Source of the DNA: Atopobium sp. ICM42b
GTDB lineage: Bacteria > Actinomycetota > Coriobacteriia > Coriobacteriales > Atopobiaceae
Direction: 5' to 3'
DNA length: 56,705 bases
Assembly: GCA_000564995.1 (NCBI GenBank)
Contig: JDFH01000015.1
Span: forward strand, 1-56,705
Shown here: positions 366-54,780 of the stretch, in pieces
Position numbering within the stretch: position 1 is the first letter of the stretch
Layout: each line of letters opens with the position of its first letter
Translations under genes and position numbers: made by a program
The notes under the pieces: model-generated
The model's input: the letters and a program-made list of their open reading frames with translations, nothing else
The model's database searches: none
What the model was told of the DNA's origin: nothing

Positions 366-610
366 GATTACTATTTAATATCTATATTCCCCTCTTTGGA
401 TGGGATATACAAACTTTCTAAAAATTTTTGAGATGCAATGTTTGAAGTCGCAACTCCACAATAACCTGCATGATTTTTGCTATTGCAGTCGACCTGCACT
501 CGTCTTTTTGACAAAACGGTTAAATCACACGGGTTTCTCGCCAAAGGGTTAAAGAAAGAAGGCAAAATCAGCGCAATCGAATTTTTAGCGTTCTCTTCCA
601 AGGAGACCAC

Positions 611-1612
611 ATGACCAAGATTCCAGAGGGCTACCGTTCAAGCCTTTCGCTTTACGATACTCAGAAAGCAATTGAGCAGGTCAAGAACGTGTTTCTGACC
701 AAACTGTGCGCCGCATTGAAGCTGTCGCGCGTCACTGCTCCGCTGATTGTTGACCCGCTTACCGGCATGAACGACAACCTCAATGGCGTTGAGCATCCGG
801 TTGCTTTTGACCTGCCAAACGTAGGCAAGAACGCCGAGGTAGTTCAGTCGCTCGCAAAATGGAAGCGCTATGCACTTTGGCGCTACAACTTTGCCGTTGG
901 TCGCGGTCTGGTCTGCGACATGAACGCTATCCGTCGCGACGAACAGCCCGATAACCTGCACTCCATTTACGTGGACCAGTGGGACTGGGAACGCATCATC
1001 ACGCAGGACGAGCGCAATACCGATACGCTGGAAGACGCCGTTTGTCGCATTGTTGAGGCAATCTGCGGAACCCTTGACGAGCTCAAGTGGCACTATCCGC
1101 AGCTTAACACGCAGCTCAGTCGCGAAGTTACCTTTGTGACCTCGCAGGAGCTTGAGGACCTCTACCCTACCCAGACGCCTAAGCAGCGAGAAAATCTGTT
1201 TGTTCGCGAGCATCCAACCACCTTTATCGTGGGTATTGGCGGCGCTCTAAACTCCGGACAGCCTCACGACTTCAGGTCTCCCGACTACGACGACTGGTCA
1301 CTCAATGGTGACCTGTTGTTCTGGGATGAGACCTTGGACTGTGCGGTAGAGATCAGCAGTATGGGCATTCGTGTTAACGCTGAGGCACTTAAGTCGCAGC
1401 TGGCAATCGCTGGATGTGAGGACCGCCTTGAGCTGCCGTTCCATAAGATGCTCATTGACGGCGAGCTGCCTTTTACCATTGGCGGCGGCATTGGCCAAAG
1501 TCGTCTTTGCATGCTGCTGCTAGAAAAAGCGCACGTCGGAGAGGTGCAGGCATCTATCTGGGACAAGCAGACCGAAGACCGCTGTGCAGAAGCAGGCGTT
1601 TCTCTGCTCTAA
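611..1612 (+). CDS. asnA: Aspartate--ammonia ligase
   Basis: Cytoplasmic enzyme making asparagine from aspartate, ammonia and ATP. At 333 residues it matches the usual AsnA length (about 330). Family landmarks are visible: the N-terminal region IPEGYRSSLSLYDTQKAIEQVK, the PLIVDPLTGMNDNLNG segment, the PNVGKNAEVVQSLAKWKR stretch, and a class II aminoacyl-tRNA-synthetase-like C-terminus with GGGIGQSRLCMLLL (motif 3-like ATP-binding arginine). An AAGGAG ribosome site stands 6 nt before the ATG. The gene is monocistronic; its upstream 280 bp contain one TTCTCGCC element (535-542) and no recognisable T-box. The identification is firm. Confidence 0.95.
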   Translation: MTKIPEGYRSSLSLYDTQKAIEQVKNVFLTKLCAALKLSRVTAPLIVDPLTGMNDNLNGVEHPVAFDLPNVGKNAEVVQSLAKWKRYALWRYNFAVGRGLVCDMNAIRRDEQPDNLHSIYVDQWDWERIITQDERNTDTLEDAVCRIVEAICGTLDELKWHYPQLNTQLSREVTFVTSQELEDLYPTQTPKQRENLFVREHPTTFIVGIGGALNSGQPHDFRSPDYDDWSLNGDLLFWDETLDCAVEISSMGIRVNAEALKSQLAIAGCEDRLELPFHKMLIDGELPFTIGGGIGQSRLCMLLLEKAHVGEVQASIWDKQTEDRCAEAGVSLL

Positions 1613-1691
1613 GCAGCGGGCCTGAACACGCGAAGCGGATCTACATCGCGTGTCACTAAACGCGCGTAGCCGCCCTCAAAACTAAAAACAT

Positions 1692-1720
1692 TTTGGCGTT
1701 TCTCCTGTTAACGCTACAAT
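1692..1720 (+). promoter_or_regulatory. Sigma-70-type promoter for the zinc-ribbon protein gene
   Basis: TTTGGC (1692-1697), a 17-bp spacer and TACAAT (1715-1720) lie about 60 bp upstream of the start at 1779. The same TTTGGC -35 variant appears in front of the DEAD-box gene, which makes the reading more credible. Confidence 0.45.
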
Positions 1721-1778
1721 AGTAACCCAGTGTAATTAAATGCCACTGAGTCTAACTGGCGATTTAAGGAGCGACTCT

Positions 1779-3331: not shown

Positions 3332-3363
3332 ATGGCGAGAAGACCGATCGATCTTCTCGCCAT
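3332..3363. terminator. Bidirectional terminator built from an inverted pair of TTCTCGCC elements
   Basis: Perfect 12-bp arms, ATGGCGAGAAGA (3332-3343) and TCTTCTCGCCAT (3352-3363), around an 8-nt loop. It lies between the convergent zinc-ribbon and ROK-kinase genes. Each arm carries a full GGCGAGAA/TTCTCGCC copy, and T-richness follows on the plus side. Confidence 0.8.
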
Positions 3364-4305: not shown

Positions 4306-4319
4306 GTTTTTCTCGCCAG

Positions 4320-5083: not shown

Positions 5084-6523
5084 CTACTCTGCATCCTGAG
5101 CGTTCTCTGCAAGAGCCTCAGCCTGCTTGGCCTGTGCACGCTCGGAGATCTTCATGAATGGCAGGTAAATTGCCATGGCGAGAAGAACCTCGATAGCCTG
5201 CCAGATAACGGCACGATAGTCGCCGCCGGTTGCCAGCCAACCACTCAGGAAGACTGGGGTGGTCCAAGGAACCATTGCAACGCAAGGGCTAATCCAACCA
5301 AGGTTGGTAAACAGGTAAGTCAAACCAATGAACAAATCTGGAACAAGAACAAATGGAATCATCAGAGGAAGGTTAAAGACGATTGGATAACCGTAAATAA
5401 CTGGCTCGTTGATGTTGAAGATACCTGGGAGAAGAGAAAGTGCTGCAACGTCTTTAGAAGCCTTGTTCTTGGAGAAGACAAAGGTGTCAAGAAGCAGCAT
5501 CAGAGTACAACCAGAACCGCCGATCAGCGCAAAGGTGTTGATGATCTGCATGTTCATGTAGTGATCCTGAGGAATTGGCTGACCAGCTGCAAAGGTTGCC
5601 ATATTGTCAACAATAAGCATGGTCAAAATTGGCTCAATCAGAACACCAGAGATGGTGGACTGGTGAATGCCAAGGCAGAAGAGCAGGTTTGCAAAGGTGT
5701 AGATGATGATGACTGCAAATGGACCAGCATTCATGAGGCCCTTCAGTGGGGCGGAAATGCTTGTTGCAATGATGGTCATAAGGTCGGTACCAGCGCAAAC
5801 TGCAAGAAGAGCAGAAGCAATACCAAAGACGGTCAGGGTCAACATCATAGGAATCATGGTGTTAAAAGAATCTGCAACCGCTGGTGGAACGCCCTCACCA
5901 AGGCTGACCTTCAGCTGCTTAACGCTGGAGAGCTTAATGAAGATGGTGGTAGAAAGCAGGCCAATGATGATTGCACCAAAGAGGCCGTTAGTACCGGTGA
6001 AGGAAGTGGAGAAAGCACCAGTTACATCAACACCAGTAACTGCATAGCCGGTTGGCAGAAGCTTAGCAACATCAGCCACAGGAAGTGCAACTGCTGCTGC
6101 AGCTGCATCAGCGGCGTTTGCTGCATGAAGAACAGCACCTGCAGTAGCAACAATGCTCTGAGGCATCATGATGATAAGTGCAGCAATACCAATAACAACG
6201 CAAGAGATTGCGTTTTCAAAACGCTTGTTACGAGCGAGGCAATAACCAATAATGCCTGCAAGAATAACTGCCGAGAAACTCAGAGTGCCCTGAGCAATTG
6301 CTGCGCCCCAAACCTTGAAATTAGCCAAGGTAACTGGATCATTTGCAAAGATGAGTGGGAACAGAACGTTGTTGATCAGTACTGCAATACCAGCCAAAAT
6401 GTAAATTGGACTGACAGTTGCAAATGCATCGCGCAGGCTTCTCAAATGAACTTGATTACCTACTTTTGCAGAAACTTCTGCAAATTTATCTAGAAACGAT
6501 GCCTGGCCATTATCTTTTGCCAT
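5084..6523 (-). CDS. PTS lactose/cellobiose-family permease, enzyme IIC
   Basis: Integral membrane sugar channel of the Lac/Chb PTS family, 479 residues, many hydrophobic helices. Family signatures include the N-terminal amphipathic helix FLDKFAEVSAKVGNQVHLRSLRDAF, the loop HQSTISGVLIEPI and the conserved PGIFNINEPVIYGYPIVFNLPLMIPF. The ATG at 6523 has AAAGGAG 7 nt upstream; a TTG six bases earlier is in frame but too close to that site. The gene contains one GGCGAGAA element (5177-5184). With the neighbouring GH1 enzyme it implies uptake of a beta-linked disaccharide. Confidence 0.93.
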   Translation of the reverse strand: MAKDNGQASFLDKFAEVSAKVGNQVHLRSLRDAFATVSPIYILAGIAVLINNVLFPLIFANDPVTLANFKVWGAAIAQGTLSFSAVILAGIIGYCLARNKRFENAISCVVIGIAALIIMMPQSIVATAGAVLHAANAADAAAAAVALPVADVAKLLPTGYAVTGVDVTGAFSTSFTGTNGLFGAIIIGLLSTTIFIKLSSVKQLKVSLGEGVPPAVADSFNTMIPMMLTLTVFGIASALLAVCAGTDLMTIIATSISAPLKGLMNAGPFAVIIIYTFANLLFCLGIHQSTISGVLIEPILTMLIVDNMATFAAGQPIPQDHYMNMQIINTFALIGGSGCTLMLLLDTFVFSKNKASKDVAALSLLPGIFNINEPVIYGYPIVFNLPLMIPFVLVPDLFIGLTYLFTNLGWISPCVAMVPWTTPVFLSGWLATGGDYRAVIWQAIEVLLAMAIYLPFMKISERAQAKQAEALAENAQDAE

Positions 6524-6546
6524 GAACAAACTCCTTTCACGAGTTT

Positions 6547-7944
6547 CTAGTCAACTATATGTGTAGTGGCAACTTGCTTAAGCCACTCAGCTGATTTCTT
6601 AAGACGACGGTTGTAGTTATCTTCCAGATCAACCTCAACAAAGCCATAACGGTTCTTAAAGGCATTTGCCCAGGACCAGTTATCGATGATGGCCCAGTAG
6701 TGATAACCACGGCATTTTGCGCCGTCCTGAATTGCACGAGCAATCCACTCAAGATGACGACGGACAAAATCAACACGATAATCGTCTTGAATTACGCCGT
6801 TTTCGTCTTTCTTAAGATCTTCTCGCTCTACGCCCATGCCATTCTCGGAAACAAACCACTCAAGCTCTGGATACTCATCACGAACCTTCATGGCAAAGTC
6901 GTAGAGACCCTGTGGGTAAATCTCCCAACCACGAGAAACATTCATCTCTGCTTCTGGCCAAATATAGGGATCAGCAAAGTTTGGAATGCCATTCTCGTCA
7001 GTATCTTTTGCAGGAGCTTGAATACGCTCTGGGTGGTAATAATTGCAACCCAGCCAATCCACAACGCCGTCGGCAAGAATAAGCTTGTCCTCAGGGCGAA
7101 TAGGCAGGTCAACACCACGGGTCTGCAGTGTATCGATGACATCCTGTGGAAGCTCTCCCTTAGTTACCAGGTCAAGCCACCAGCGAATGTTGACGCCGTC
7201 GGTCATGCGCAGCGCCTCAAGATCTGCCTCAGATGGATTCTCTTTGGTATATGGTGGTGCAAAGCAGTTGATGAGGCCAATGCGAGAGTCCTCAAGCATA
7301 AAGCCTGCGGCTTTTGCGCGGCGATACTCGCGCACGCCAAGTGCGTGAGCAAGTGAAATGTTGTACTGAACTGCACGAGCACGCGAATAATTCTTAACAA
7401 AGGGGTACCAGCCACCAAGTGTGTAGCGGACCTCTGGCTCAACAATTGGCTCGTTAAAGGTAAACCAATAACGAATCTCTTTTCCAAACGTTTCAAACGC
7501 AATGCGCGCGTAATGCGCATATGCCTCAACAACCTCACGAGACTCCCAGCCACCGCGATTGAAGAGGTATTCAGGCATGTCAAAATGATAGAGGTTTACA
7601 AAAATCTCAATACCAACCTTCTTAGCAACAGCAAAAAGGTGATGATAGTACTTCTCGCCCTCTGGATTAAGGTTGCCGTTAATGTCCAACAAACGGCTCC
7701 ACTGAATAGAAGTGCGAATGGAATCCATGCCAAGAGACTTGAGAAGCTGAAGATCGTCTTCCATTCTTTCTGTAAAGTCATTTCCGGCGTAGGATCCAAC
7801 GCGATTGTGGAATGCATGAATGTCCAGGTTAGACCAGGTGTCCCAAAGGTTTGGCAGCTTTCCTCCGTCTTGCCATTTACCCTCGGTCTGTGGACCAGAC
7901 ATTGCCCCACCAAAGAAGAAATTCTCAGGCAACTGATACGACAT
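6547..7944 (-). CDS. Glycoside hydrolase family 1, 6-phospho-beta-glycosidase
   Basis: 465 residues, the usual GH1 length. The acid/base glutamate lies in FTFNEPIV (E165) and the nucleophile in VSENGMG (about E366). Near the C-terminus the enzyme reads DNWSWANAFKNRYGF, where ordinary beta-glucosidases have a Glu before the Trp. The Ser there and the following RYGF match the phosphate-binding arrangement of 6-phospho-beta-galactosidases (LacG), although the lysine of that motif appears shifted by one. It therefore probably hydrolyses 6-phospho-beta-galactosides or glucosides delivered by the PTS encoded downstream. First gene of the operon; the divergent GntR gene is probably its regulator. 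Confidence 0.9.
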   Translation of the reverse strand: MSYQLPENFFFGGAMSGPQTEGKWQDGGKLPNLWDTWSNLDIHAFHNRVGSYAGNDFTERMEDDLQLLKSLGMDSIRTSIQWSRLLDINGNLNPEGEKYYHHLFAVAKKVGIEIFVNLYHFDMPEYLFNRGGWESREVVEAYAHYARIAFETFGKEIRYWFTFNEPIVEPEVRYTLGGWYPFVKNYSRARAVQYNISLAHALGVREYRRAKAAGFMLEDSRIGLINCFAPPYTKENPSEADLEALRMTDGVNIRWWLDLVTKGELPQDVIDTLQTRGVDLPIRPEDKLILADGVVDWLGCNYYHPERIQAPAKDTDENGIPNFADPYIWPEAEMNVSRGWEIYPQGLYDFAMKVRDEYPELEWFVSENGMGVEREDLKKDENGVIQDDYRVDFVRRHLEWIARAIQDGAKCRGYHYWAIIDNWSWANAFKNRYGFVEVDLEDNYNRRLKKSAEWLKQVATTHIVD

Positions 7945-8078: not shown

Positions 8079-8798
8079 ATGAATAAGTACGACTTGATTG
8101 TTCAGGATCTCAAAACTGATATTGCTATAGGCACGTATCCTGCTTATTCTCGCCTGCCTTCTGTTGCTCAGCTCTGCGAGCAATATGAAGTGAGCAAAAT
8201 TACCATTAATAAGGCACTAGAAGTTCTTGAGCAGCAAGGGCTTATCTTCAGGCGAAAAGGCTCCGGCACTTTTGTCAAAAAGTTGGAAGAAGGAACACAA
8301 ATTAAGCCAAGTAAAGAAGTCTCCGGTCAAATGGAAGGCTTCATGGCTGAACACGCTGCCCGAGGTGAGCGCGTTAAATCAAAGGTCTATACCTTTGAAG
8401 TTGAGCGTCCCTCTGAATACATTGCTAAAGCTCTTGATATTACTACCGAAGATTTTGTCTATAGAATTGTGCGCGTTAGGCTTGTTGAAGGAATTGCGCA
8501 GGTCATCGAGTATACCTACATGCCTATCAGCTTAGTACCCAATCTTAAAAAGGCTCATCTGGAGCACTCAATTTACAACTATATTGAGAGCGAAATTGGG
8601 CTCAGAATTGCCAATGCGCACCGCGTAATTAGAGCCGTCATGCCTACAGAGGTTGAGGCCTCAAGGCTAGAAATTAGTACAAGCGACCCCCTCTTAGAGG
8701 TTGAGCAAATCGGTTATATCGACGATGGTCGCGCGTTTGAATATTCCATCTCGCGACATGCGCATGGCTATGAATTCATGACCATTTCTATGCACTAA
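8079..8798 (+). CDS. GntR-family transcriptional regulator (HutC/UTRA subfamily)
   Basis: 239 residues. The N-terminal winged helix-turn-helix reads YDLIVQDLKTDIAIGTYPAYSRLPSVAQLCEQY and then VSKITINKALEVLEQQGL, with the wing RRKGSGTFV. A UTRA effector-binding domain follows from about residue 85 to the end (QVIEYTYMPISLVPN is typical). Such proteins repress sugar-uptake operons and release DNA upon binding a phosphorylated sugar. GAGGAGGTGTC precedes the ATG. Divergent orientation to the GH1/PTS operon and the shared inverted repeat make it the likely local regulator. One TTCTCGCC copy at 8147 within the gene lacks the usual -4 G. Confidence 0.92.
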   Translation: MNKYDLIVQDLKTDIAIGTYPAYSRLPSVAQLCEQYEVSKITINKALEVLEQQGLIFRRKGSGTFVKKLEEGTQIKPSKEVSGQMEGFMAEHAARGERVKSKVYTFEVERPSEYIAKALDITTEDFVYRIVRVRLVEGIAQVIEYTYMPISLVPNLKKAHLEHSIYNYIESEIGLRIANAHRVIRAVMPTEVEASRLEISTSDPLLEVEQIGYIDDGRAFEYSISRHAHGYEFMTISMH

Positions 8799-8820: not shown

Positions 8821-8850
8821 ATGGCGAGAAGACCAATTGATCTTCTCGCC
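8821..8850. terminator. Bidirectional terminator built from an inverted pair of TTCTCGCC elements
   Basis: GGCGAGAAGA (8823-8832) pairs perfectly with TCTTCTCGCC (8841-8850) around CCAATTGA, followed by TTTT. It serves the convergent gntR and yfcE-like genes and is nearly identical to the hairpin at 3332-3363. Confidence 0.8.
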
Positions 8851-8953
8851 TTTTGCGTGTATGGGCGCGCGGCGCGGGGTGCAGCACGCAGCGCAACGCA
8901 GCCTGGTTGCTGCTCGGCAAGCGCTCGACGGCTGCTCGGCAGCTGCTCGGCAA
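8851..8953. repeat. GC-rich repeat tail between yfcE-like stop codon and terminator
   Basis: About 100 bp of clearly higher GC than the flanks, with CTGCTCGGCA-like units repeated (8930-8960 region: GCTGCTCGGCAGCTGCTCGG). It separates the minus-strand stop codon from its terminator and encodes nothing recognisable. See the finding on recurrent tails. Confidence 0.5.
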
Positions 8954-9643: not shown

Positions 9644-10627
9644 TTAGAACCTACCGGTCATCCTTGCGTCAGGATCAGCCTCGGAAACACGCTTACGAAG
9701 ATCTGCAATAGCTGCAGGTATCTCGTCTGTGTTGTATGGCGTCATCTGGTACACCCAGTTAATCCAGTTGCGATACAGCAAGTTGGCGTGCGCTCGCCAG
9801 GTAAACAGCGGCTGCTTTTCTGGATCGTTATCAGGGAAATAGTTCTCTGGCAGGCGAATAGGCAGGCCCTTGTGAAAGTCGCGCCAATACTCCTCTGCAA
9901 GCGTATCGCGATCATATTCAAAATGACCGGTTACAAAAATCTCGTGGAAATCTCTGGTGGCGAGAAGTGCAGGTCCGCTGGTAAATCCCTCAGAAAGCAC
10001 GGCAAGCTCTGGATGATTCACCAAAGCTGATGTCTCAATTGCAGCATGGCGAGAGTGTGGCATGTAATGTACCTCGTCAAATCCATTGGTGAGGAAGCAA
10101 TACTCATCGCATAAACGCTGCGGAAAAATACCAAAAAGCTTAGCGCCCAGCATCTTCTTGGGAATATCGTGCAGGTAATACAGGCCAGCTAGTGCGCCCC
10201 AGCACAGGTACATCGTAGAAAAGACGTGCTCCTGAGACCAATCAACAATGCGACAGAATTCATCCCAATAGTCAACGTCCTCATATTTAAGATCTTCGAT
10301 AGGAGCACCCGTAATAATCAGACCGTCATAATTCTTATCTTTGAAGTCATCAAAAGTTGAATAAAACGTGACCAGATGGTCGGCGGCAGTGTTTTTAGAT
10401 TCATGCGAAGAGATGCGCATAAAGTCACACGTTACCTGAATAGGAGACTTTGAAATCAAACGGAGAATCTGAGTTTCTGTCTGAATTTTCTTAGGCATTA
10501 AATTCAAAATTGCCAGGCGCAGCGGGCGAATCTCCTGGTGTTCTGCAACTTCTTCCTCAAGCGCAAAAATACGCTCCTCTTGCAGTGTCTTCTTAGCTGG
10601 TAAACCATCTGGAATATTAATAGGCAT
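9644..10627 (-). CDS. metA: Homoserine O-acyltransferase (MetA type, probably acetyl-CoA specific)
   Basis: 327 residues, first committed step of methionine synthesis. The protein has the MetA core ILNLMPKKIQTETQILRL, the active-site cysteine in MYLCWGALAG (Cys142), and the GHFEYDR region with the catalytic His and Glu. Residue 111 is glutamate (TGAPIE). In characterised MetA enzymes Glu111 goes with acetyl-CoA and Gly111 with succinyl-CoA, so the product is likely O-acetylhomoserine despite the common succinyltransferase name. AAGGAAG precedes the ATG. It stands alone; no other methionine genes are in the window. Confidence 0.93.
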   Translation of the reverse strand: MPINIPDGLPAKKTLQEERIFALEEEVAEHQEIRPLRLAILNLMPKKIQTETQILRLISKSPIQVTCDFMRISSHESKNTAADHLVTFYSTFDDFKDKNYDGLIITGAPIEDLKYEDVDYWDEFCRIVDWSQEHVFSTMYLCWGALAGLYYLHDIPKKMLGAKLFGIFPQRLCDEYCFLTNGFDEVHYMPHSRHAAIETSALVNHPELAVLSEGFTSGPALLATRDFHEIFVTGHFEYDRDTLAEEYWRDFHKGLPIRLPENYFPDNDPEKQPLFTWRAHANLLYRNWINWVYQMTPYNTDEIPAAIADLRKRVSEADPDARMTGRF

Positions 10628-12537: not shown

Positions 12538-13857
12538 ATGAAACAACTCCGCCCATATCCACAGGTTATTGTCACCAAGAAAGCAGCTCGCGCGCTTGCG
12601 GGCGGACATCCTTGGGTCTTTGAGGGCGAGGTTATTCGTGTAGAACCGTCTCCAGAAAGCGGCAAGCATGCTCAAAACGGTTGCATTGTTGATGTCTTTG
12701 AAGAGAACGGTACCTACCAGGGAACCGGCCTTCTGTCAGAAATGAGCAAGATTCGCGTCAGAATTGTGACAAGAAACGCCAACGATAGGCTTAACGAAGC
12801 GTTTTGGAGTCGTAAGATTAGCTGGGCGTGGGAGCACCGCAAAACCACTATGGGAAACCGCGCTCTACCAGGCACTGAGCCCGATACCAATTGCTGCCGT
12901 GTCATCTTCTCTGAGGCCGATGGCTTTCCTGGCTTAATCGTTGACCGCTACGAGAATGTGCTTGTTGCGCAGGTAGGAACCGTTGGCATGGAGCATCTGC
13001 GTGATGCTATCTATCCACTGCTACTTGAAGTTTTCTCTGCAGACGGCCAGGTAATCGACGGCATTTACGAAAGAAATGACTCCCCCTCTCGCCTTAAAGA
13101 GGGACTTCCGCAATATAAGGGCTGGTGGACAAGTGGTTCTTCTGACGAGAATAGCTTGATTACAGAAAATCCTCTTACGCTGCCTTCAACTCATGTTCTT
13201 GCAACCGAAAACGGGCTCAAATTCAATCTTGACCTGGAAAACAGCCAGAAAACCGGCTTTTTCTTAGATCAAAAATATAATCGTCGAGCAGCTCGTCAGC
13301 TTGCGCAAGGTCGCCGTGTGTTGGATTGCTTCTGTCACGTTGGTCCTTTTGGTCTTAATGCCGCAGCTGGTGGAGCAGAATTTGTCCGCTGTGTAGATGT
13401 CAGTCAAACCGCCATTGACCTTGCGCGCCAAAACGCGGAGCTCAACGGCTTGGCAGACCGCATGGACTTTACCTGCGCAAATGTTCTCGAATATCTGCCA
13501 AAGTTAGCTCAAGACCGCGCTCAGCTCAAAGCAGAGGGAGGTCCGTTTGACCTCATCATTCTGGATCCGCCCGCATTCACTAAGACACGCGACAAGGTTC
13601 GCAGCGCCATGCGTGGCTATAAGGAAATCAACGCTGCAGCCATGAAGTTGCTACCTCGAGGCGGCTACCTGGCAACCTGTTCCTGCTCACACTTCATGAC
13701 CAGAGATCTTCTCGCCCAAGCAATTGCCGAGGCAGCTCACCACACCAACGTACAGCTCAAGCAAATTGAAGAGCGACAGCAAGCTCCTGACCACCCAATT
13801 CTTTGGGGTGTTCCCGAGAGCCATTACCTTGATTTCTTTATTTTCCAGGTGATCTAG
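12538..13857 (+). CDS. RlmI-family class I SAM-dependent rRNA methyltransferase
   Basis: 439 residues. An N-terminal PUA-like domain (KKAARALAGGHPWVFEGEVIR) is followed by an EEHEA-type middle region and a Rossmann methyltransferase domain with SAM motif RVLDCFCHVGPFGLNAAAGGA. It has the catalytic motifs FDLIILDPPAFTK (IV) and GGYLATCSCSHFM (VI, nucleophilic Cys). This is the RlmI/YccW architecture that methylates C1962 of 23S rRNA at C5. The ribosome site GAGAAGG overlaps the palindrome CTTCTCGCGAGAAG (12517-12530), itself two overlapping near-copies of the octamer. One full TTCTCGCC copy lies at 13709. Confidence 0.9.
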   Translation: MKQLRPYPQVIVTKKAARALAGGHPWVFEGEVIRVEPSPESGKHAQNGCIVDVFEENGTYQGTGLLSEMSKIRVRIVTRNANDRLNEAFWSRKISWAWEHRKTTMGNRALPGTEPDTNCCRVIFSEADGFPGLIVDRYENVLVAQVGTVGMEHLRDAIYPLLLEVFSADGQVIDGIYERNDSPSRLKEGLPQYKGWWTSGSSDENSLITENPLTLPSTHVLATENGLKFNLDLENSQKTGFFLDQKYNRRAARQLAQGRRVLDCFCHVGPFGLNAAAGGAEFVRCVDVSQTAIDLARQNAELNGLADRMDFTCANVLEYLPKLAQDRAQLKAEGGPFDLIILDPPAFTKTRDKVRSAMRGYKEINAAAMKLLPRGGYLATCSCSHFMTRDLLAQAIAEAAHHTNVQLKQIEERQQAPDHPILWGVPESHYLDFFIFQVI

Positions 13858-14486: not shown

Positions 14487-14993
14487 TCAATTTTCCAAAC
14501 TTTTGCTTTTACGACGCTCTTTGAAGAAGGCTTTGAGCTGTGCAGATGCCTCGTCTGCTAATACTCCGCCTGAGACAGCAAACTCGTGATTGAGTCTTGG
14601 ATCGCTACTAACGTCAAACAACGTACCCGTTGCGCCGCCCTTGGGATCAAACGTACCAAACACACAACGATCAATACGAGCGTTGACCATCAATCCCGCG
14701 CACATCAAGCAAGGTTCCAGCGTCACATAAACCGTACAACCCGAGAGCCTCCAGCGGCCAAGCTTTTTTGAGGCCTCTTGCATGGCGAGAAACTCAGCGT
14801 GCGCAGAAGGGTCGTTATCAATTTCACGGCGATTGTGGGCAACGGCAATAACCTCTCCATCGCACACCACAACTGCTCCGATAGGCACTTCTCCTATCTG
14901 TGCTGCAAGCTCTGCCTGCTCAAGAGCAAGTTTCATGTACTTCTGATCAAGAGCAGCCTGTGGGGTCAAAGGCTCTTGTGCTTCGTCACTCAT
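14487..14993 (-). CDS. tadA: tRNA-specific adenosine deaminase
   Basis: 168-residue zinc enzyme converting adenosine-34 to inosine in tRNA-Arg(ACG). The zinc and catalytic residues are intact: SAHAEFLAM (His65, Glu67) and TLEPCLMCAG (Cys95, Cys98). The region IGEVPIGAVVV and the C-terminal DPKGGATGTLFDV...LNHEF are typical of TadA rather than of cytidine deaminases. The start at 14993 has GAGAGGAG 5 nt upstream. It contains one GGCGAGAA copy (14784). It lies next to a serine tRNA gene, in opposite orientation. Confidence 0.94.
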   Translation of the reverse strand: MSDEAQEPLTPQAALDQKYMKLALEQAELAAQIGEVPIGAVVVCDGEVIAVAHNRREIDNDPSAHAEFLAMQEASKKLGRWRLSGCTVYVTLEPCLMCAGLMVNARIDRCVFGTFDPKGGATGTLFDVSSDPRLNHEFAVSGGVLADEASAQLKAFFKERRKSKSLEN

Positions 14994-15183: not shown

Positions 15184-15276
<93 letters not shown>

Positions 15277-16051: not shown

Positions 16052-16082
16052 GAGCTGTTTCGTTACACTTTGTACCAGCTCA

Positions 16083-16119
16083 GCCCGGTATCTGCGTTCC
16101 GCAGGTACCGGGCTTTTTT
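16083..16119 (+). terminator. Intrinsic terminator after lemA
   Basis: GCCCGGTA (16083-16090) pairs with TACCGGGC (16106-16113), with an inner CTGCG/CGCAG extension and six T following. Confidence 0.9.
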
Positions 16120-16211
16120 GTGCGCCGTGAAGCTTTGCGGATCGGGCTGGTCATGCGCTGGTCGCACCTCGACTGCAGGTAAATCCGAGCAGCTAGATTA
16201 TGTGAAGAGTC

Positions 16212-16241: not shown

Positions 16242-16249
16242 AGTTACAT

Positions 16250-16440
16250 CTGTGAATTGTCCTCGCAAGCACAATTCACGTTCTATTGGATGAAGAGAAA
16301 GGTCAGCATGAAACCTCGACCTCACAGTCGCTGACCTCTTGCGGTGTGCCGATTTGCACCGTGAGGGGTGAAATCGCAATGCAGTCCCCGTGGCAAATAC
16401 GCAGAGTTTCTCGCCAAAGCCACGCTTTAGTCTTCGGACG
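16250..16440 (+). promoter_or_regulatory. Structured 5' leader, candidate metal-ion riboswitch
   Basis: The leader folds by eye into several perfect stems: GTGAATTGT/ACAATTCAC (16252-16260 with 16271-16279), GGTCAGC/GCTGACC (16301-16307 with 16330-16336), and a nested element TTTGC/GCAAA (16353-16357 with 16393-16397) enclosing GGGG/CCCC (16364-16367 with 16386-16389), whose loop contains AATGCAG. It precedes a two-gene metal-transport operon, so an Mg or Mn sensor is the natural guess. I could not convince myself of a match to the M-box or yybP-ykoY consensus. One TTCTCGCC copy lies near its 3' end (16408-16415). Confidence 0.4.
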
Positions 16441-16456
16441 CATGTAAGGAGCACAC

Positions 16457-19758: not shown

Positions 19759-19786
19759 AGGGCGAGAAGATCGATCTTCTCGCCCT
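19759..19786. terminator. Bidirectional terminator built from an inverted pair of TTCTCGCC elements
   Basis: GGGCGAGAAGATC (19760-19772) and GATCTTCTCGCCC (19773-19785) form a perfect palindrome, with an extra A-T pair. It lies between the convergent Nramp and PRC-barrel genes. Third example of the paired-element terminator. Confidence 0.8.
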
Positions 19787-26940: not shown

Positions 26941-27028
26941 TTTTGATGTGATGGCGAGAAGTGCGGACGATGTCGCAACGGCACACAGCACAGACGAGGC
27001 TCGCACCGAGGCAGCAGCATCGACACGC
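26941..27028. repeat. GC-rich tail downstream of the DXS-like gene
   Basis: 88 bp between the minus-strand stop codon (27029) and the terminator, with GC-rich words such as GTCGCAACGGCAC and GCTCGCACCGAGGC, no coding sense, and one GGCGAGAA copy (26953-26960). Confidence 0.45.
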
Positions 27029-35144: not shown

Positions 35145-35161
35145 GGGTTTCTCGCCATGCT

Positions 35162-36151: not shown

Positions 36152-36387
36152 AAGATCTCCTTTGTGACAATGAGCTTCATGTTGGCATCATTGTGATATC
36201 ACGTTGATTACAAGTCAATAGAAATTTTTATTTAAATATTGTTTAAAAATCGCAGGTAAGACGGTGGTTTTGTTGGCCTCGGCGCGCGGCGAGAGGTGAG
36301 CGGTGAGAAAAACGCTTGATGCGGCGCATGGCGAGAAGTTCGTCTCTTCGAGAAAAGTAACCGATCTGTAAGGCTTGGACTAAGCGC

Positions 36388-36561: not shown

Positions 36562-36686
36562 GGAGCCTGATTTTCTCGCCAAGTCTGAGCGATTTGCCGG
36601 AAAAGCGCACCATATCTGAGCGATTTGCCGGTTTTTCTCGCCAAGTCTGAGCTGTTTTACTCAGACTTGATGCGGTTTTCAGGCTC
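36562..36686. repeat. Second 31-bp-period array, unit TCTGAGCGATTTGCCGG
   Basis: TCTGAGC begins at 36584, 36615 and 36646, exactly 31 bp apart, with a closing hairpin CAAGTCTGAG/CTCAGACTTG (36642-36651, 36660-36669). The block is bounded by GAGCCTGA (36563-36570) and TCAGGCTC (36679-36686). Two TTCTCGCC copies (36573, 36635) are part of the repeat. With the preceding array this fills most of the 36152-36856 gap, where I see no gene. Confidence 0.85.
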
Positions 36687-37993: not shown

Positions 37994-39253
37994 ATGGGAT
38001 ACAAGACACCAACATGCTCTATTGCACGTAGCTGCGGAGGCTGTGAATGGCTTTCGGTCCCCTATCCTATCCAACTTAAACGCAAGCAAACGCAGGTAGA
38101 AGAACTTCTCGCCCCACTGGCAAGCATCAATAACGTAACTATCGAGCCCATTCGTGGAATGGACGAGCCTCTGGCTTATCGTCACAAAGCAGCAACGCCA
38201 TTTGCACCAGGCAAGGGCCGCACGGTTCGCTCTGGTTTTTACGCAAGCGGAACGCACAAAATTATTGCCTCAAAGGAATGCCTGGTAGAAGATGGTCGAG
38301 CTCGCGCTATCCTCAACGACGTGGCGTATCTTGCCGGCCAGTTCAACATTCACGCCTATCAGGAAGATCGCGGCAAAGGGGCGCTTCGCCACGGCGTAGT
38401 ACGCTGCGGATATGCCACTGACGACGTCATGCTGGTACTGGTGGTCAACGGTCAGCATCTGCCTCATGAACAGGAGTTTGTTGCTGCGCTTCGCAAGGCG
38501 CACCCCGAGCTGACCAGCATCTTCTTGAACGTCAACCAGAAGCGCACCAACGCAATCTTAGGGCGAGAAACCCGTCTGCTTTGGGGCTCAACGTCTATGA
38601 GCGACAAGCTTTTGGGCTGCACGTTTGAGATTGGCTCAACCAGTTTCTACCAGACAAACCCCCAACAAACTGAGGTGCTTTATCAGCTGGCCATCGACGG
38701 CGCGCTTGCTGGCTCCACGCAGACCAGCGCCACGCAAGACGGCGCTGCGCTGACCAGTGCTCCCGCACAAGCAGCAACCTCTGCTCAAGCCAACAACCTA
38801 CGAGTTCTTGACGCTTACTGCGGCACAGGAACCATTGGACTTTGCTTGGCGCACGCCGCCGAAGCTCAGGGCATCAACCTCTTGCTCACTGGTGTTGATC
38901 AGGTTGAAAACAATATTCAGATGGCTCGCAGAAACGCTCGAAACAATAAACTTGATGCTGAGTTTATCTGCGACGATGCCACTCGCTACATGCAAGCTTT
39001 AGCAAAAGAAGGTCAGAACTTTGACGTTATTATTCTTGACCCGCCTCGCGCTGGTTCCACGCCCACCTTCCTCAAGGCAACTGCCCAGCTAGCTCAGAAG
39101 AAAATCGTGTATGTGAGCTGCAGCGTTGTGACGCAGGCTAGGGACCTCAAAGTTCTTCTCGACAGTGGATTTGCCATTGAGCGCGTGACGCCTGTGGACA
39201 TGTTCCCTCACACCAAGCATGTGGAATGCGCTGTGATGCTTTCTCGGGCTTAG
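37994..39253 (+). CDS. RlmCD/TrmA-family uracil-C5 RNA methyltransferase
   Basis: 419 residues. Four cysteines for an iron-sulphur cluster: Cys8, Cys14, Cys17 (CSIARSCGGCEW) and the later ASKECLV. The C-terminal methyltransferase has SFYQTNPQQ, SAM motif VLDAYCGTGTIGLCLA, FDVIILDPPRAG and the catalytic YVSCSVVTQARDL. A Thr/Ala/Gln-rich insertion of about 30 residues precedes the SAM motif. Such enzymes make m5U in 23S rRNA or tRNA. GGAGAGG precedes the ATG. Two octamer copies (38106, 38572). Its stop codon lies inside the left 28-bp direct repeat of the next locus. Confidence 0.92.
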   Translation: MGYKTPTCSIARSCGGCEWLSVPYPIQLKRKQTQVEELLAPLASINNVTIEPIRGMDEPLAYRHKAATPFAPGKGRTVRSGFYASGTHKIIASKECLVEDGRARAILNDVAYLAGQFNIHAYQEDRGKGALRHGVVRCGYATDDVMLVLVVNGQHLPHEQEFVAALRKAHPELTSIFLNVNQKRTNAILGRETRLLWGSTSMSDKLLGCTFEIGSTSFYQTNPQQTEVLYQLAIDGALAGSTQTSATQDGAALTSAPAQAATSAQANNLRVLDAYCGTGTIGLCLAHAAEAQGINLLLTGVDQVENNIQMARRNARNNKLDAEFICDDATRYMQALAKEGQNFDVIILDPPRAGSTPTFLKATAQLAQKKIVYVSCSVVTQARDLKVLLDSGFAIERVTPVDMFPHTKHVECAVMLSRA

Positions 39254-41016: not shown

Positions 41017-41784
41017 GTGATTATAAAAAACGAAATACCTCTTTTAGAATATGACGATGCCTCCCCAGAGGTTATTTCAGCAGATCACGAATGGACCGCA
41101 GGTCGGCTACCAGAAAAATGCCTCTTTGCATTTCTTGGAGACGTTGTCCATGATTACGCCAACGAGCACGGAGCAGAGATCGTAGAAACAATCGTGACTG
41201 TTTCTCGAGACATTAAAGTCTACGTTTTGGATTCATATGGCGAGAAAATCTGTTTAGTTCAATCCCCTACTGGATCTGCTTCATCCACACACGTAATGGA
41301 CATACTGGTTACCTGTGGATGTAAGAAAATAGTTGCAGTTGGTTCTTGCGGCGTTCTAAAAGAGATACAAGAAAATGCCTTTCTCGTCCCAACTAAAGCT
41401 CTTAGAGCGGAAGGGACGTCCTATCACTATCTTCCAGTATCAAGATATATAGAGCTTGATAAGGAGCCAATTTCTGTTATAGAAGAAACCTTCAAAAAAG
41501 ACGGACTCCCTTTTGAGACGTGCACCACCTGGTCTACTGACGGTTTCTTCCGTGAGACAAAAGATATGGTTGAGTATCGTCTGCAAGAAGGATGCTCAGT
41601 TGTAGAGATGGAATGCTCGGCACTAGCCGCTTGCTGCAGAAAACGAGGAGCGCAGTTTGGTCAGTTTCTCTTTACAGCAGACTCTTTGGCAAACGTTCAC
41701 GAATATGACGAGAGGGACTTTGGCAAAGACTCCCATGAGAAAGCGCTGCTTCTTGGCCTAGAAATACTCAGAAACTTTACCTAA
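41017..41784 (+). CDS. Nucleoside phosphorylase (PNP/UDP family 1)
   Basis: 255 residues, GTG start with AGGAG 6 nt upstream. The phosphorylase fold is seen in SPTGSASSTHVMDILVTCGCKKIVAVGSCGVL (phosphate and base pocket), in TTWSTDGFFRET and in GCSVVEMECSALAACCRKRG (the ribose-binding Met-Glu and base contact). It cleaves a purine or pyrimidine nucleoside with phosphate. Which base is preferred cannot be read. One octamer copy at 41239, so the stretch is not uniformly foreign. Confidence 0.88.
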   Translation: MIIKNEIPLLEYDDASPEVISADHEWTAGRLPEKCLFAFLGDVVHDYANEHGAEIVETIVTVSRDIKVYVLDSYGEKICLVQSPTGSASSTHVMDILVTCGCKKIVAVGSCGVLKEIQENAFLVPTKALRAEGTSYHYLPVSRYIELDKEPISVIEETFKKDGLPFETCTTWSTDGFFRETKDMVEYRLQEGCSVVEMECSALAACCRKRGAQFGQFLFTADSLANVHEYDERDFGKDSHEKALLLGLEILRNFT

Positions 41785-43580: not shown

Positions 43581-43749
43581 CTCCTATAGTTCTATGAATT
43601 TTACAGATAGACCGATTTTCTCGCCCACTTCTCCTGCACCTTAAGGAGAAGTGGATTGTGTATATACGGTTAATTTACAGCTTGAACAGCAAGTTCTTCT
43701 CGTCATTTATTATGATTTACCTATCTTTTTTGCTGTTTGAGGAGAAATA

Positions 43750-50380: not shown

Positions 50381-50424
50381 TAACGCTCGGTTGTTCCATC
50401 ACTATTCAGAGGGCTTCTCGCCAT

Positions 50425-51039
50425 TTACTTACCTGCCTCTATGCGAACCTTTTGGCCCTCAACGTGAACCTTGTCCTGCGCAAAAAGCTGTAACACCTCA
50501 GGATACAGCTGATGCTCTACCTGGTGAATTGCCTCTTCAAGCTGGTCAACAGTCCAGCCCTCCTCAACCACAACAGGTCGCTGGGCAATAATGGGGCCGC
50601 GGTCGTAATCGGCGTTTGCCAGATGAACGGTAACGCCTGTCACCTTGACCCCGTATTCATACGCATCCTGAATAGCGTGCGCGCCACGGAAGCTTGGCAG
50701 CAGCGCTGGGTGCAGGTTGAGCACGCGATTAGGGAAGGTGTTCAGAATAGGAACGCCAACTTTACGCATGTAACCAGCCATAACAACGTAGTCGACGTTA
50801 TAGCGCTTGAGCTCGGTAGCAATCACCATGTCCGCGACAAACGGATCCTCGTACGTCTCTTTTGAGAGTGTCAGAGTTTGCAAACCGGCTGCCTCTGCCC
50901 TCTTCAGACCATATGCATCGGGGCGAGAAGAAACGACCAGTTCAATGGTTGCGTCTAGCTTGCCAGCATCAATGGCATCAATAATAGCCTGCAGGTTGGT
51001 ACCTGAACCGGAAAGAAGAACGCCAAGCTTAATTGGCAT
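50425..51039 (-). CDS. purN: Phosphoribosylglycinamide formyltransferase
   Basis: 204 residues from the ATG at 51039, chosen because the conserved N-terminus MPIKLGVLLSGSGTNLQAIID starts there and GGTGG precedes it. The formyl-folate catalytic region NLHPALLPSFRGAHAIQDAYEYGVKVTGVTVH, then DYDRGPIIAQR, contains the expected Asn, His and Asp. It formylates GAR in purine synthesis. The start lies 11 nt inside the purM gene, so the two are coupled. One octamer copy at 50922. Confidence 0.95.
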   Translation of the reverse strand: MPIKLGVLLSGSGTNLQAIIDAIDAGKLDATIELVVSSRPDAYGLKRAEAAGLQTLTLSKETYEDPFVADMVIATELKRYNVDYVVMAGYMRKVGVPILNTFPNRVLNLHPALLPSFRGAHAIQDAYEYGVKVTGVTVHLANADYDRGPIIAQRPVVVEEGWTVDQLEEAIHQVEHQLYPEVLQLFAQDKVHVEGQKVRIEAGK

Positions 51040-52128: not shown

Positions 52129-53622
52129 TTACTGCTCTGAGGGCATAAGGCCCTCATCAATTAACTGCTGTTCTACCTGGTCAAACTTTAGTGCATACGA
52201 TGGATGCAAGTTGTCTGGTTTGTTCTCTGGCAAGAATCTCTGATGGAAGTCCTCTGGAATTTCCACGGGATACTTACCGCTAAAGCAAGACTCGCAATAA
52301 CCCCTTGAGGGTACGCATGCAAGCAGGCCCTCAAGGCTTAAGAAGCCCAAAGAATCTGCGCCGATATACTCGCAAATTTCTTCTGTACTCATTTTTGCTG
52401 CCACAAGCTGGTGCTGGTCAGCGGTATCAATGCCGTAGAAGCAGGGCCACGCTACCTTAGGAGAAGCGCTTCTGACGTGCACTTCTGTGGCTCCCGCGTC
52501 TCTGAGTAGCTGAACAATCTGTTTTGAAGTGGTTCCGCGAACAACAGAATCGTCCACCATTACAATGCGTTTATCTGCGACAACGTCAGAAAGTGCGTTG
52601 AGCTTAAGTCGAACACCCAGCTCACGAAGCTGTTGTGTAGGCTGAATGAACGTTCTTGCAACGTAGCGGTTCTTGATGAGGCCGGTACCAAAAGGTACGT
52701 CCAGCTCTTGCGCAAAGCCCTCAGCTGCAGGAACACCGGAATCTGGCACACCAATTACCAGGTCAACGTCTGCTGGCGTCTCTTTTGCCAGCTGACGACC
52801 CATCTGGTGACGGACGGAATATACCGAGCGGCCACTAATAATAGAGTCAGGGCGCGAGAAATACACCTGCTCAAAGATGCAGTCTGCCTGCTGACGAGGA
52901 GCAAGTCCCATCTCAGAAGACAGGCCATTATCCGAGATGCGGATAATCTCGCCAGGGGCCACCTCGCGCACATACGTAGCGCCCACAATATCCAGCGCGC
53001 ACGTCTCAGATGCAACTACCCAGTTATTCTCGCCTTCCTCGCCAATATGGCCGAGTACCAGCGGACGAATACCGTTAGGATCCCTAAACGCATAGAGGGC
53101 GTTCTCGCGGATGAGCACCATGGCGTAACCACCCTCGATGAGGTTCATGGTTGCAGCAATACCGGTGCGCAGACGGTGTGTACGACGAGTAAAGTAGCCG
53201 ATGAGCTGGGCTGCTACCTCGGAATCCGTGTGCGATCTAAAGGAAATCTGGCGAGAAGACAGTTCTTCTCGCAAGGAGTCAAAGTTAACGAGGGTGCCGT
53301 TATGCGCCAGGGCAATGAGGGTCTCATCGATGGACGACATGTGTGGCTGGGCCGACTCCCAGCCCTTGGCACCCGCGGTGCCGTAGCGGCAGTGGCCGAT
53401 AGCCACTTTACCTGGCATTGCGTTGAGATCGTCGTTGTTAAAAACTTCAGTTACGAGGCCCGTGTCTTTTCTGATAAGCACGGTCTGACCGTCGCCGACG
53501 GCTATACCTGCGGAATCTTGCCCGCGGTGCTGCAGCGCGTGCAGCGCAAAATAAGTGAGTCGAGCAACGTCACGGTCAGGCGCCCATACTCCAAAGACGC
53601 CACATTCCTCGTGAAGTTCCAT
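52129..53622 (-). CDS. purF: Amidophosphoribosyltransferase
   Basis: 497 residues from the ATG at 53622, which follows GGAGGGG by 5 nt; a GTG 33 nt upstream is less well placed. The short leader MELHEE precedes Cys7 (ECGVFGVW), the glutaminase nucleophile exposed by propeptide removal, as in Bacillus. The PRPP motif VMVDDSVVRGTTSKQIV and the cysteines near the C-terminus (CESCFSGKYP region), which ligate a cluster in the Bacillus type, are visible. First step of purine synthesis, first gene of the operon. Two octamer copies (53027, 53250). Confidence 0.95.
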   Translation of the reverse strand: MELHEECGVFGVWAPDRDVARLTYFALHALQHRGQDSAGIAVGDGQTVLIRKDTGLVTEVFNNDDLNAMPGKVAIGHCRYGTAGAKGWESAQPHMSSIDETLIALAHNGTLVNFDSLREELSSRQISFRSHTDSEVAAQLIGYFTRRTHRLRTGIAATMNLIEGGYAMVLIRENALYAFRDPNGIRPLVLGHIGEEGENNWVVASETCALDIVGATYVREVAPGEIIRISDNGLSSEMGLAPRQQADCIFEQVYFSRPDSIISGRSVYSVRHQMGRQLAKETPADVDLVIGVPDSGVPAAEGFAQELDVPFGTGLIKNRYVARTFIQPTQQLRELGVRLKLNALSDVVADKRIVMVDDSVVRGTTSKQIVQLLRDAGATEVHVRSASPKVAWPCFYGIDTADQHQLVAAKMSTEEICEYIGADSLGFLSLEGLLACVPSRGYCESCFSGKYPVEIPEDFHQRFLPENKPDNLHPSYALKFDQVEQQLIDEGLMPSEQ

Positions 53623-53662
53623 TGGATCCCCTCCGGATGCCTCGGCTTGAGTCACCCTTGAT

Positions 53663-53702
53663 CAAACGTCTCTCACGTTTGGCAACAGTACATACAGTGT
53701 AC
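53663..53702. promoter_or_regulatory. Paired palindromes upstream of purF
   Basis: CAAACGT/ACGTTTG (53663-53669, 53675-53681, 5-bp spacer) and GTACA/TGTAC (53688-53692, 53698-53702) lie 40-80 bp upstream of the purF start. CAAACGTTTG-like symmetry resembles LacI/PurR-type operators; which regulator binds is unknown. Confidence 0.45.
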
Positions 53703-53723
53703 CTGGAAAATTGCAAGAAAAAG

Positions 53724-53748
53724 TGCTCCGAACAAATATGTTCGGAGC
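53724..53748 (-). terminator. Intrinsic terminator after the sortase gene
   Basis: GCTCCGAACA pairs with TGTTCGGAGC (overlapping arms, 53724-53748); the minus strand continues ACTTTTTCTTGC. Separates sortase from the pur operon. Confidence 0.8.
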
Positions 53749-53841
53749 GTGTAACAATTTTTTAAGAAAGTGGCATTTTACTGCCCTGACTAACAGCTTC
53801 TAACTGTGTCCAATGCTCTTTCTGAACCGTCAGCATGCCGA

Positions 53842-54780
53842 CTACTGGGCCTTTGGCTGAGCCTCGGCTTTTGGAACACAGATAAGCATAGTCCTGCCGT
53901 ACTGATCAGTGTAGTTACAGGTAAAGAGCGTAAGAACATGATCAGCGCGAGAAATAACATCTGCTGCATCAGAACGCGAGCTTACTGCCCTAGAAAGCCT
54001 ATCTTTCAAGTAAGACCTGAACTCATCAACAGAGCCGAAGTTAAACTGCCTGACTTCCTCATCGTCTTCGTCGGTGTGATAGGTAAATACCGGCTCAAGC
54101 TCATATGTCTGAGTAGGTGTGACGTACCAGATGGTCTCAACCTTATCGAAGGTAGATTGGTCATTCATTGCTCCAATGTACTGGAACATGGAGCCGTTTC
54201 TCATATGGTGACCATAGAGAATGGTTTGCTGATCAGTAAGGCCGTTTGGATTGTTCTGGTAGTCCATAAAAATCTGACCACCGATTGACCACTCACCCTT
54301 TGCGTTTGTGTGCAGGTAGTGATCGTTGTCTGTAGTCTGATACACAGGATAGTTGACTTGCGTATCTGGAATCTGAATCCAGCCGACAACCTGGTTGTTT
54401 ACTGCCTGAAGACCAGCCCAATCAATAACTGGAGCCTCGTCTTTTTTCTCGGAAACTGTTGCGTATGTAGCAAGCTCTTCGTTGATGACGTCTTGCTCGT
54501 GGTATTCAAGCTGGGTTTTGCCAAACATAACACCAGCAACAACCAAGAGGCCAATGCCAACTACCAGCAAGAGTGTGGAAAGAATATAGGCAAAACCTTT
54601 CTTCTTAGCGGGTTTCTCGCCAGACTTTTTAGGAGAGGTTTTTTTGTTTCCCTCTTTTTTTGAAGACGCGGAATTTTTCATAGAAACTATCTCGACGGAT
54701 GTTTTTGAGGTGTGAGTATTTCCAGCCGTCTGATCGTCAGCGGCGAATGAAGCAAAATGCTTGCCGTTTTTTGATTCCAT
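53842..54780 (-). CDS. Class B sortase
   Basis: 312 residues. A basic Lys/Ser-rich N-terminus (about 60 residues) precedes one membrane helix (YILSTLLLVVGIGLLVVAGVMFG). The sortase domain has the class B layout: VGWIQIPDTQVNYPVYQTTDNDHYL, catalytic His in TILYGHHMRNGSMF, catalytic Cys in VLTLFTCNYTD and Arg in YGRTMLIC. Class B enzymes attach haem-uptake or pilin proteins, often encoded nearby; no such substrate is adjacent here. GAAGGGAAG precedes the ATG. An in-frame ATG about 33 codons later is an alternative. One octamer copy at 54614. Confidence 0.9.
   Translation of the reverse strand: MESKNGKHFASFAADDQTAGNTHTSKTSVEIVSMKNSASSKKEGNKKTSPKKSGEKPAKKKGFAYILSTLLLVVGIGLLVVAGVMFGKTQLEYHEQDVINEELATYATVSEKKDEAPVIDWAGLQAVNNQVVGWIQIPDTQVNYPVYQTTDNDHYLHTNAKGEWSIGGQIFMDYQNNPNGLTDQQTILYGHHMRNGSMFQYIGAMNDQSTFDKVETIWYVTPTQTYELEPVFTYHTDEDDEEVRQFNFGSVDEFRSYLKDRLSRAVSSRSDAADVISRADHVLTLFTCNYTDQYGRTMLICVPKAEAQPKAQ

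Follow-up and report, generated by a model that had tools for sequence, protein, structure and literature searches.

A dispersed word, GNNYTTCTCGCC, that probably serves as a DNA uptake sequence in Coriobacteriia

The DNA uptake sequence (DUS) of Neisseria is described, in the sections of two papers cited here, as better conserved than the sequence around it, missing from genes acquired recently and paired to form terminators (PMC2397512), and as occurring in dialects that share a core, CTG (PMC3630211). According to a passage of a 2025 paper, motifs of this kind are known from two families alone, the Neisseriaceae and Pasteurellaceae (PMC12616744), and the literature that we searched, which was not exhaustive, contained no uptake sequence in Coriobacteriia or other Gram-positives. 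For Micrococcus luteus, the relevant part of a published study states that transformation requires tad/Flp genes, that comEA/EC are present, and that the combination of tad/Flp with comEA/EC is frequent in Actinobacteria (PMC4322843); the term "uptake sequence" occurs 0 times in that paper. Here we describe an octamer, TTCTCGCC, and the 12-mer that contains it, GNNYTTCTCGCC, in a 56,705-base stretch of DNA from Atopobium sp. ICM42b (the whole stretch is referred to below as the window), and follow them through related genomes. In the best reading of these data, GNNYTTCTCGCC probably serves as a DNA uptake sequence in this Gram-positive class.

The word and its copies in the window

The window carries 35 exact copies of TTCTCGCC on both strands, 21 in the plus and 14 in the minus orientation, as had been reported in a first-pass annotation that likened the word to DUS; all of the starts listed there are correct except 38572, which should read 38562. 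TTCTCGCC is the top over-represented octamer of the window, with a first-order Markov expectation of 2.24, and 100 dinucleotide shuffles gave a mean of 2.40 copies and a maximum of 6. The recount returned the same figures for the upstream bases, with G at -4 in 32 of 35 copies and a pyrimidine at -1 in 31, and an A at +8 extends the octamer in 20, giving a conserved unit GNNY-TTCTCG-CC(A). The strict 12-mer GNNYTTCTCGCC is present in 29 copies, and the 10-mer core GNNYTTCTCG in 78, as opposed to 10 for the core read backwards (the reversed control). In the related genome G003, single-letter variants at G(-4), Y(-1) or TTCTCG are represented by 0 to 11 copies each against 128 copies of the consensus, and variants in the last two letters (CC) are tolerated, at 20 to 42 copies each. 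Because only CC tolerates change, the firm core is GNNYTTCTCG, with a graded 3' end. A weak TTCAA flank is seen at -10 to -6 of the motif in the G003 stretches. Conservation is slight beyond about 20 bp round the core, which rules out a dispersed transposable repeat.

By greedy longest-ORF (open reading frame) gene calls, 13 of the 35 octamers are intergenic, fewer than the 16 counted at first pass, and 22 lie in called genes, in both orientations. The 12-mer is concentrated between genes: 13 of its 29 copies fall in the 7.2 of 56.7 kb that are intergenic, a density of 1.80 per kb between genes versus 0.32 per kb within, and in G003 the corresponding figures are 30 of 128 copies in 37.7 of 400 kb. 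Longest-ORF calls are unreliable in GC-rich genomes, and the argument from coding and intergenic placement is therefore restricted to the window and G003, although four other genomes were also run.

Three inverted pairs of the word (3332-3363, 8823-8850 and 19759-19786) sit past gene ends, two of them between convergent genes. Their predicted hairpins have energies of -18.8 to -25.4 kcal/mol (z -5.3 to -6.6), and 0 of 200 shuffles were as stable for each of the four hairpin folds run. All three are classed as terminator-like; pairing in terminators had been named at first pass among the features of DUS. On these folding models the paired copies probably also act as transcription terminators, as their counterparts in Neisseria do. 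Inverted pairs within 30 bp number 4 for the 12-mer and 22 for the core in 400 kb of G003. In the window, 29 of the 35 octamers lie outside close inverted pairs. The copies and pairs are as follows.

535..542, plus strand, TTCTCGCC copy, intergenic
3334..3341, minus strand, TTCTCGCC copy, intergenic, left arm of inverted pair
3354..3361, plus strand, TTCTCGCC copy, intergenic, right arm of inverted pair
3332..3363, no strand, inverted motif pair between convergent genes, terminator-like hairpin on both strands
4310..4317, plus strand, TTCTCGCC copy, intergenic
5177..5184, minus strand, TTCTCGCC copy, in ORF 5084-6529
7652..7659, plus strand, TTCTCGCC copy, in ORF 6547-7944
8147..8154, plus strand, TTCTCGCC copy, in ORF 8079-8798, without G at -4
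8823..8830, minus strand, TTCTCGCC copy, intergenic, left arm of inverted pair
8843..8850, plus strand, TTCTCGCC copy, right arm of inverted pair, within called start of ORF 8837-9496
8823..8850, no strand, inverted motif pair, terminator-like hairpin
9959..9966, minus strand, TTCTCGCC copy, in ORF 9644-10627
13709..13716, plus strand, TTCTCGCC copy, in ORF 12538-13857
14784..14791, minus strand, TTCTCGCC copy, in ORF 14487-14993
16408..16415, plus strand, TTCTCGCC copy, in called ORF 16080-16454
16505..16512, minus strand, TTCTCGCC copy, in ORF 16457-18343
16713..16720, plus strand, TTCTCGCC copy, in ORF 16457-18343
19761..19768, minus strand, TTCTCGCC copy, intergenic, left arm of inverted pair
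19777..19784, plus strand, TTCTCGCC copy, intergenic, right arm of inverted pair
19759..19786, no strand, inverted motif pair between convergent genes, 12-pair stem, terminator-like on both strands
21761..21768, plus strand, TTCTCGCC copy, in ORF 21370-22242
25134..25141, plus strand, TTCTCGCC copy, in ORF 24284-25522
26953..26960, minus strand, TTCTCGCC copy, intergenic
27348..27355, plus strand, TTCTCGCC copy, in ORF 27029-28786
32619..32626, minus strand, TTCTCGCC copy, in ORF 31950-33794
35149..35156, plus strand, TTCTCGCC copy, intergenic
36330..36337, minus strand, TTCTCGCC copy, in short called ORF 36243-36497
36573..36580, plus strand, TTCTCGCC copy, intergenic
36635..36642, plus strand, TTCTCGCC copy, intergenic
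38106..38113, plus strand, TTCTCGCC copy, in ORF 37994-39253
38562..38569, minus strand, TTCTCGCC copy, in ORF 37994-39253
41239..41246, minus strand, TTCTCGCC copy, in ORF 41017-41784
43618..43625, plus strand, TTCTCGCC copy, intergenic
50415..50422, plus strand, TTCTCGCC copy, intergenic
50922..50929, minus strand, TTCTCGCC copy, in ORF 50425-51096
53027..53034, plus strand, TTCTCGCC copy, in ORF 52129-53655
53250..53257, minus strand, TTCTCGCC copy, in ORF 52129-53655
54614..54621, plus strand, TTCTCGCC copy, in ORF 53842-54780

Enrichment, conservation and dialects in relatives

Genome-wide counts come from relatives of the window's strain. G001 has 626 copies of the 12-mer, 314 of them forward and 312 reverse, and 17 of its reversed control; four other genomes of the same genus have 453 to 516 copies against 12 to 24, and in the five genomes together the core ranges from 1482 to 1820 against 330 to 454 reversed. 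In 400 kb of G003, TTCTCGCC is again the top octamer (155 copies versus 9.7 expected from an order-2 Markov model), so that the enrichment predicted from the window extends to the genomes of its relatives. Forward and reverse counts of the 12-mer are near-equal in motif-rich genomes. Replichores were followed through twenty 20-kb stretches round the closed G003 contig, where the sign of the GC skew changes near 0.83 Mb. The core is found in all 20 stretches, with 197 leading-strand and 189 lagging-strand copies (54 and 68 for the 12-mer) in the 19 stretches that remain when the skew-neutral L043 is left out. The confinement to one replichore strand that the first-pass annotation had named as evidence against an uptake role is thus not seen. 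Spacing in G003 is over-even, with a variance/mean ratio of 0.72 in 219 bins of 2 kb from 22 stretches (lower-tail P 7e-4) as opposed to 0.96 for the reversed control. This evenness was reached by 0 of 300 count-matched hexamers sampled from 386, the lowest of which stood at 0.81.

The word is also conserved across related species, a check proposed at first pass. The window and G003 are 86.2% identical over 48,452 aligned bases, and the core is kept in G003 at 51 of 70 aligned sites, compared with 612 of 1589 for 400 permuted patterns, which were pooled and none of which reached 20 aligned sites singly (0.385, binomial P 6e-9). The eight-position mask of the core is fully identical to G003 at 0.37 of all coding and 0.38 of all intergenic positions. 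Full 12-mers are kept at 17 of 23 sites; eight core and six 12-mer sites were dropped as unaligned to G003. Between the window and G003 the substitution rate is 0.04 at TTCT, and positions outside the motif range from 0.06 to 0.26. G001 (94.5% identity) shares 15 of 16 12-mers and 31 of 38 core sites with the window, the backgrounds being 0.69 and 0.63, in an alignment of the window's first 20 kb, outside which lie 13 12-mers and 40 core sites.

We surveyed 104 genomes of the family, each at least 90% complete, and classed as motif-rich those with 250 or more 12-mers, plus three genomes with a second form of the word, GNNYTTCTCGGC, which ends in GC instead of CC; 51 of the 104 are motif-rich by the threshold. 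The GC form outnumbers the CC form 820 to 29 in G067, 811 to 45 in G027 and 420 to 80 in G037, the only family genomes with a fivefold or larger GC excess. These three genomes form one clade in a single-gene (TadA) tree of 22, with support of 99/97. GNNYTTCTCGCC and GNNYTTCTCGGC are dialects with a common core, and the preference between them is graded: GC and CC copies number 357 and 191 in G015, 297 and 98 in G007, 323 and 138 in G021, and 707 and 408 in G074, with a milder GC excess in many others, and in genus g29 the two forms are about equal. Of the eight genomes queried outside the family, G039 (837 GC, 71 CC) and G156, from another order (498 GC, 55 CC), use the GC form, and G053 and G276 have 72 to 117 copies of either. 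The other four, G215, G253, G270 and G291, belong to genus g64 of another family; each of their genomes carries 447-886 CC and 319-483 GC copies, and the reversed controls number 27-48. In g64 the core, at 2239-2648 copies per genome, is as dense as in many motif-rich relatives of Atopobium, which may reflect inheritance, transfer or convergence. Some genera lack the motif; in family members free of it, core and reversed counts are 153 and 193 (G022), 234 and 246 (G032), 267 and 253 (G068), 812 and 763 (G076), and 645 and 658 (G077), and in G028 and G081 the core is present with a loose 3' end.

The prophage marker TerL (PF03354) was found in 11 of the 104 family genomes, of which G004, G119 and G122 are motif-rich. 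The 20-kb terminase stretches of these three have 1, 6 and 2 core sites versus 22, 25 and 17 predicted from genome-wide core rates with rounded genome sizes; the comparison rests on these pre-set stretches, and P values from blocks delimited after counting were not used. PHROGs scans of 10, 5 and 5 ORFs showed each of the three prophages to have genes for head, tail, portal, terminase or integrase proteins, leaving 2 of 20 ORFs without a match. Core density recovers, unevenly, in most of the bins that flank the prophages. The motif is nearly absent from three of three prophages examined, as a word rare in newly acquired DNA would be.

Uptake genes and other features of the window

The com and pilus genes, for which a search had been suggested at first pass, are widespread. 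ComEC, DprA and a PF00437 secretion/pilus ATPase are each encoded in 104 of 104 family genomes, and in all 22 genomes whose locus was read the PF00437 ATPase stands among tad genes of the Tad/Flp type. The tad locus of G003 encodes TadE and T2SSF proteins above the Pfam threshold, a Flp-like pilin and a CpaB-like protein recognized by sub-threshold hits, and a MinD/ParA-type protein that we take as TadZ; comEA-comEC adjoin a gene taken as holA. A prepilin peptidase was not located in G003. Among the matches listed, all six tad queries were matched in 22 of 22 genomes, some of them weakly (from 24 bits up for one query), and so were ComEA and ComEC at each of the 16 loci read. Pilins of the N-methyl type IV class (PF07963) were matched in 14 of the 104 genomes. 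The isoelectric points of the minor pilins and of ComEA follow no clear pattern. In motif-free G022, ComEC (locus L120, 697 aa) scores 64 bits against the G003 protein, compared with at least 261 in the other loci read, and this very diverged ComEC is possibly decaying.

The host had been placed among coriobacteria at first pass. It is an Atopobium-type member of the class, which we take to be Coriobacteriia: the nearest genome compared, G001, is 94% identical to the window's first 20 kb, and the protein encoded at 43750-46329 is 98% identical to one from Atopobium sp. BS2. This 859-aa protein is an LPXTG-anchored surface protein with Listeria-Bacteroides (Flg_new) repeats. A Pfam scan of 20 of the 51 called ORFs of the window found many housekeeping enzymes and transporters and one ORF without a match, and no phage or plasmid genes were seen among those 20. 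The sole RNA gene found in the window is tRNA-Ser (TGA) at 15184-15274.

Other words are repeated as well. TGACCAG, a second enriched word, occurs 38 times in the window versus 6.9 expected (e.g. 180, 3833, 13697, 27298, 46131), on both strands and entirely inside called genes. TGACCAGC has 18 copies in the window, and the enrichment is weaker in relatives (TGACCAGC 32 per 400 kb in G003, 15 per 124 kb in G001). The pair TTTACCTG / CAGGTAAA is present 14 times versus 1.4 expected (e.g. 5162, 13468, 28098), and 13 times per 124 kb in G001. The G001 sample (stretches L010-L014) also has a repeated decamer, AAATGGGAGG, and a 12-mer, AGAAATGGGAGG, in 8 copies against 0.01 expected.

Interpretation and comparison with known systems

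If GNNYTTCTCGCC is an uptake sequence, its history can be pictured as follows. Cells would make a Tad/Flp-type pilus, a minor component of which, or ComEA, would bind GNNYTTCTCG-CC on external DNA. The DNA would enter via ComEC and recombine with the help of DprA/RecA. Alleles bearing the word would be imported more often than others, so that the word would accumulate by biased uptake and recombination (molecular drive), at first where coding constraint is low, which would lead to even spacing, an intergenic excess and reuse in terminators. Prophages would lack the word because they arrive by other routes, shifts in the receptor would give rise to dialects, and the favoured imports would be DNA of the same or closely related species. 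In this scheme uptake itself, its preference for the motif, the Tad pilus or ComEA as carrier of the receptor, and the spread of copies by molecular drive are inferred.

Several results weigh against an uptake role. Motif-free G022, G032, G068, G076 and G077 encode ComEC, DprA and the PF00437 ATPase as well, along with the tad genes where these were read, so the machinery is permissive rather than diagnostic and the motif cannot be predicted from it. When a receptor was sought by comparing motif-rich, motif-free and GC-dialect genomes at their tad and comEA-comEC loci, no protein followed the motif. PF07963 pilins, the class of the Neisseria receptor, were not found in 90 of the 104 genomes, among them all five of the window's genus and the motif-richest genus, g4, although very divergent pilins could escape detection. 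In the prophage stretches the reversed control, too, falls somewhat short (3, 1 and 2 versus about 6, 4 and 4), and the non-prophage control L148 (G122:C1:300001-320000) has 5 core sites versus about 17 expected. TerL prophages occur in 3 of 51 motif-rich and 8 of 53 poor genomes, which is not significant (P 0.20). The lone reversed control was kept at 7 of 10 G003 sites, a small sample, hardly below the motif. Natural transformation in Coriobacteriia was not reported in the literature searched, again not exhaustively. L148 of G122 may itself be another island. The self-preferring transformation in a coriobacterium proposed at first pass is supported by the sequence: density, lack of strand bias, intergenic enrichment, hairpin pairs, spacing, conservation, prophage scarcity and dialects are as it predicts. 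Lineages with and without the motif cannot be told apart by their machinery genes, so that uptake itself can only be proposed.

Among the alternatives, a site bound by a protein that structures or segregates the chromosome (a nucleoid-associated, occlusion or anchoring factor) would agree with even spacing and near-absence from prophages, as expected of a chromosome-wide mark. KOPS-type marks are strand-biased and Noc/matS-type marks regional, however, and the core lies on both strands in every G003 stretch; such a site also gives no reason for inverted pairs or genus dialects, and we regard it as unlikely. A Chi-like recombination hotspot, recognized within the cell by a helicase-nuclease of end resection so as to steer repair, would likewise be an abundant, non-palindromic, asymmetric word scarce in phage DNA. 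Chi is leading-strand biased, and the G003 replichore counts rule out strand-biased roles of the Chi or KOPS kind; intergenic enrichment, hairpin pairs and the change of dialect between genera are all left unexplained by Chi, and this explanation appears very unlikely. Slimmer still is the prospect that the word is a target of methylation, restriction-modification or a BREX-like system which the genome retains instead of avoiding. Type I/III targets have a split, non-palindromic layout, which G-N2-YTTCTCG resembles, but the 3' end of the word is graded, not fixed, and such targets are not usually about 15-fold enriched, evenly spaced or paired in hairpins, as this motif is.

Two further explanations concern what the word does within and beside genes. 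That it is only the stem arm of intrinsic terminators or attenuators is suggested by the three close pairs just after genes and their stable predicted folds, yet just 6 of the 35 octamers are in such pairs and most copies are in called genes in both orientations. Paired copies are too few to account for the enrichment, and terminators alone are a highly improbable explanation. That the word arises as a side effect of codon or peptide bias (words of the Gly-Glu-Lys/Asn and Leu-Leu-Ala type) might be read from the preference for some reading frames within genes and from the roughly twofold excess of the core over its reversed control in many other members of the class. The higher density between genes than within refutes this for the window's genus, the word is missing from same-family relatives such as G077, and we give codon bias next to no credence.

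We return to GNNYTTCTCGCC as an uptake sequence. On balance we think it reasonably likely that the word is a self-DNA uptake code outside the two Proteobacterial families, the first of its kind among Gram-positives and one recognized by a Tad/Flp pilus instead of a classical type IV pilus, that it is of sufficient age to have diverged into dialects across several families of Coriobacteriia, and that it would thus act as a built-in mating barrier and an anti-phage filter. Such codes could be peculiar to two Gram-negative families by chance, or could follow from competence in general. If true, a third case, unrelated to those two and found in a Gram-positive class with a different pilus, would let the evolution of sexual isolation in bacteria be tested; it would also predict natural competence in these bacteria, and the motif could be used to fish for the receptor.

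Several described systems invite comparison. HIP1, the highly iterated palindrome of cyanobacteria, is likewise an extremely over-represented short word, but the word described here is non-palindromic, with dialects and hairpin pairing. The uptake signal sequence (USS) of Pasteurellaceae has AT-rich flanks, which the weak TTCAA flank recalls, and is of the AAAGTGCGGT or ACAAGCGGTC type, unlike GNNYTTCTCGCC, in another host with another pilus machine. As the cited portion of a study of USS describes, that element is over-represented, has no general orientation bias, and occurs in many genic copies and in intergenic inverted repeats (PMC2346458), all of which are seen here. The tad locus and comEA-comEC, as predicted uptake machinery, resemble the Tad/Flp transformation system of Micrococcus luteus, where, in the relevant part of that report, two tad clusters are needed (PMC4322843); G003 was read at one. 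A further likeness is to the DUS of Neisseriaceae, which the cited sections describe as a conserved, non-palindromic word of 10-12 bp on both strands, with inverted pairs as terminators and dialects with a short core (PMC3630211, PMC2397512). Unlike DUS, whose core in the section cited is CTG (PMC3630211), the word here is built on an unrelated sequence, GNNYTTCTCG, in a Gram-positive class and not in Proteobacteria, its uptake is inferred, and a ComP-type N-methyl minor pilin was not found (PF07963 in 0 of 5 genomes of its own genus). By analogy, then, GNNYTTCTCGCC appears to work like a DUS, yet it is a member of neither the DUS nor the USS sequence family.

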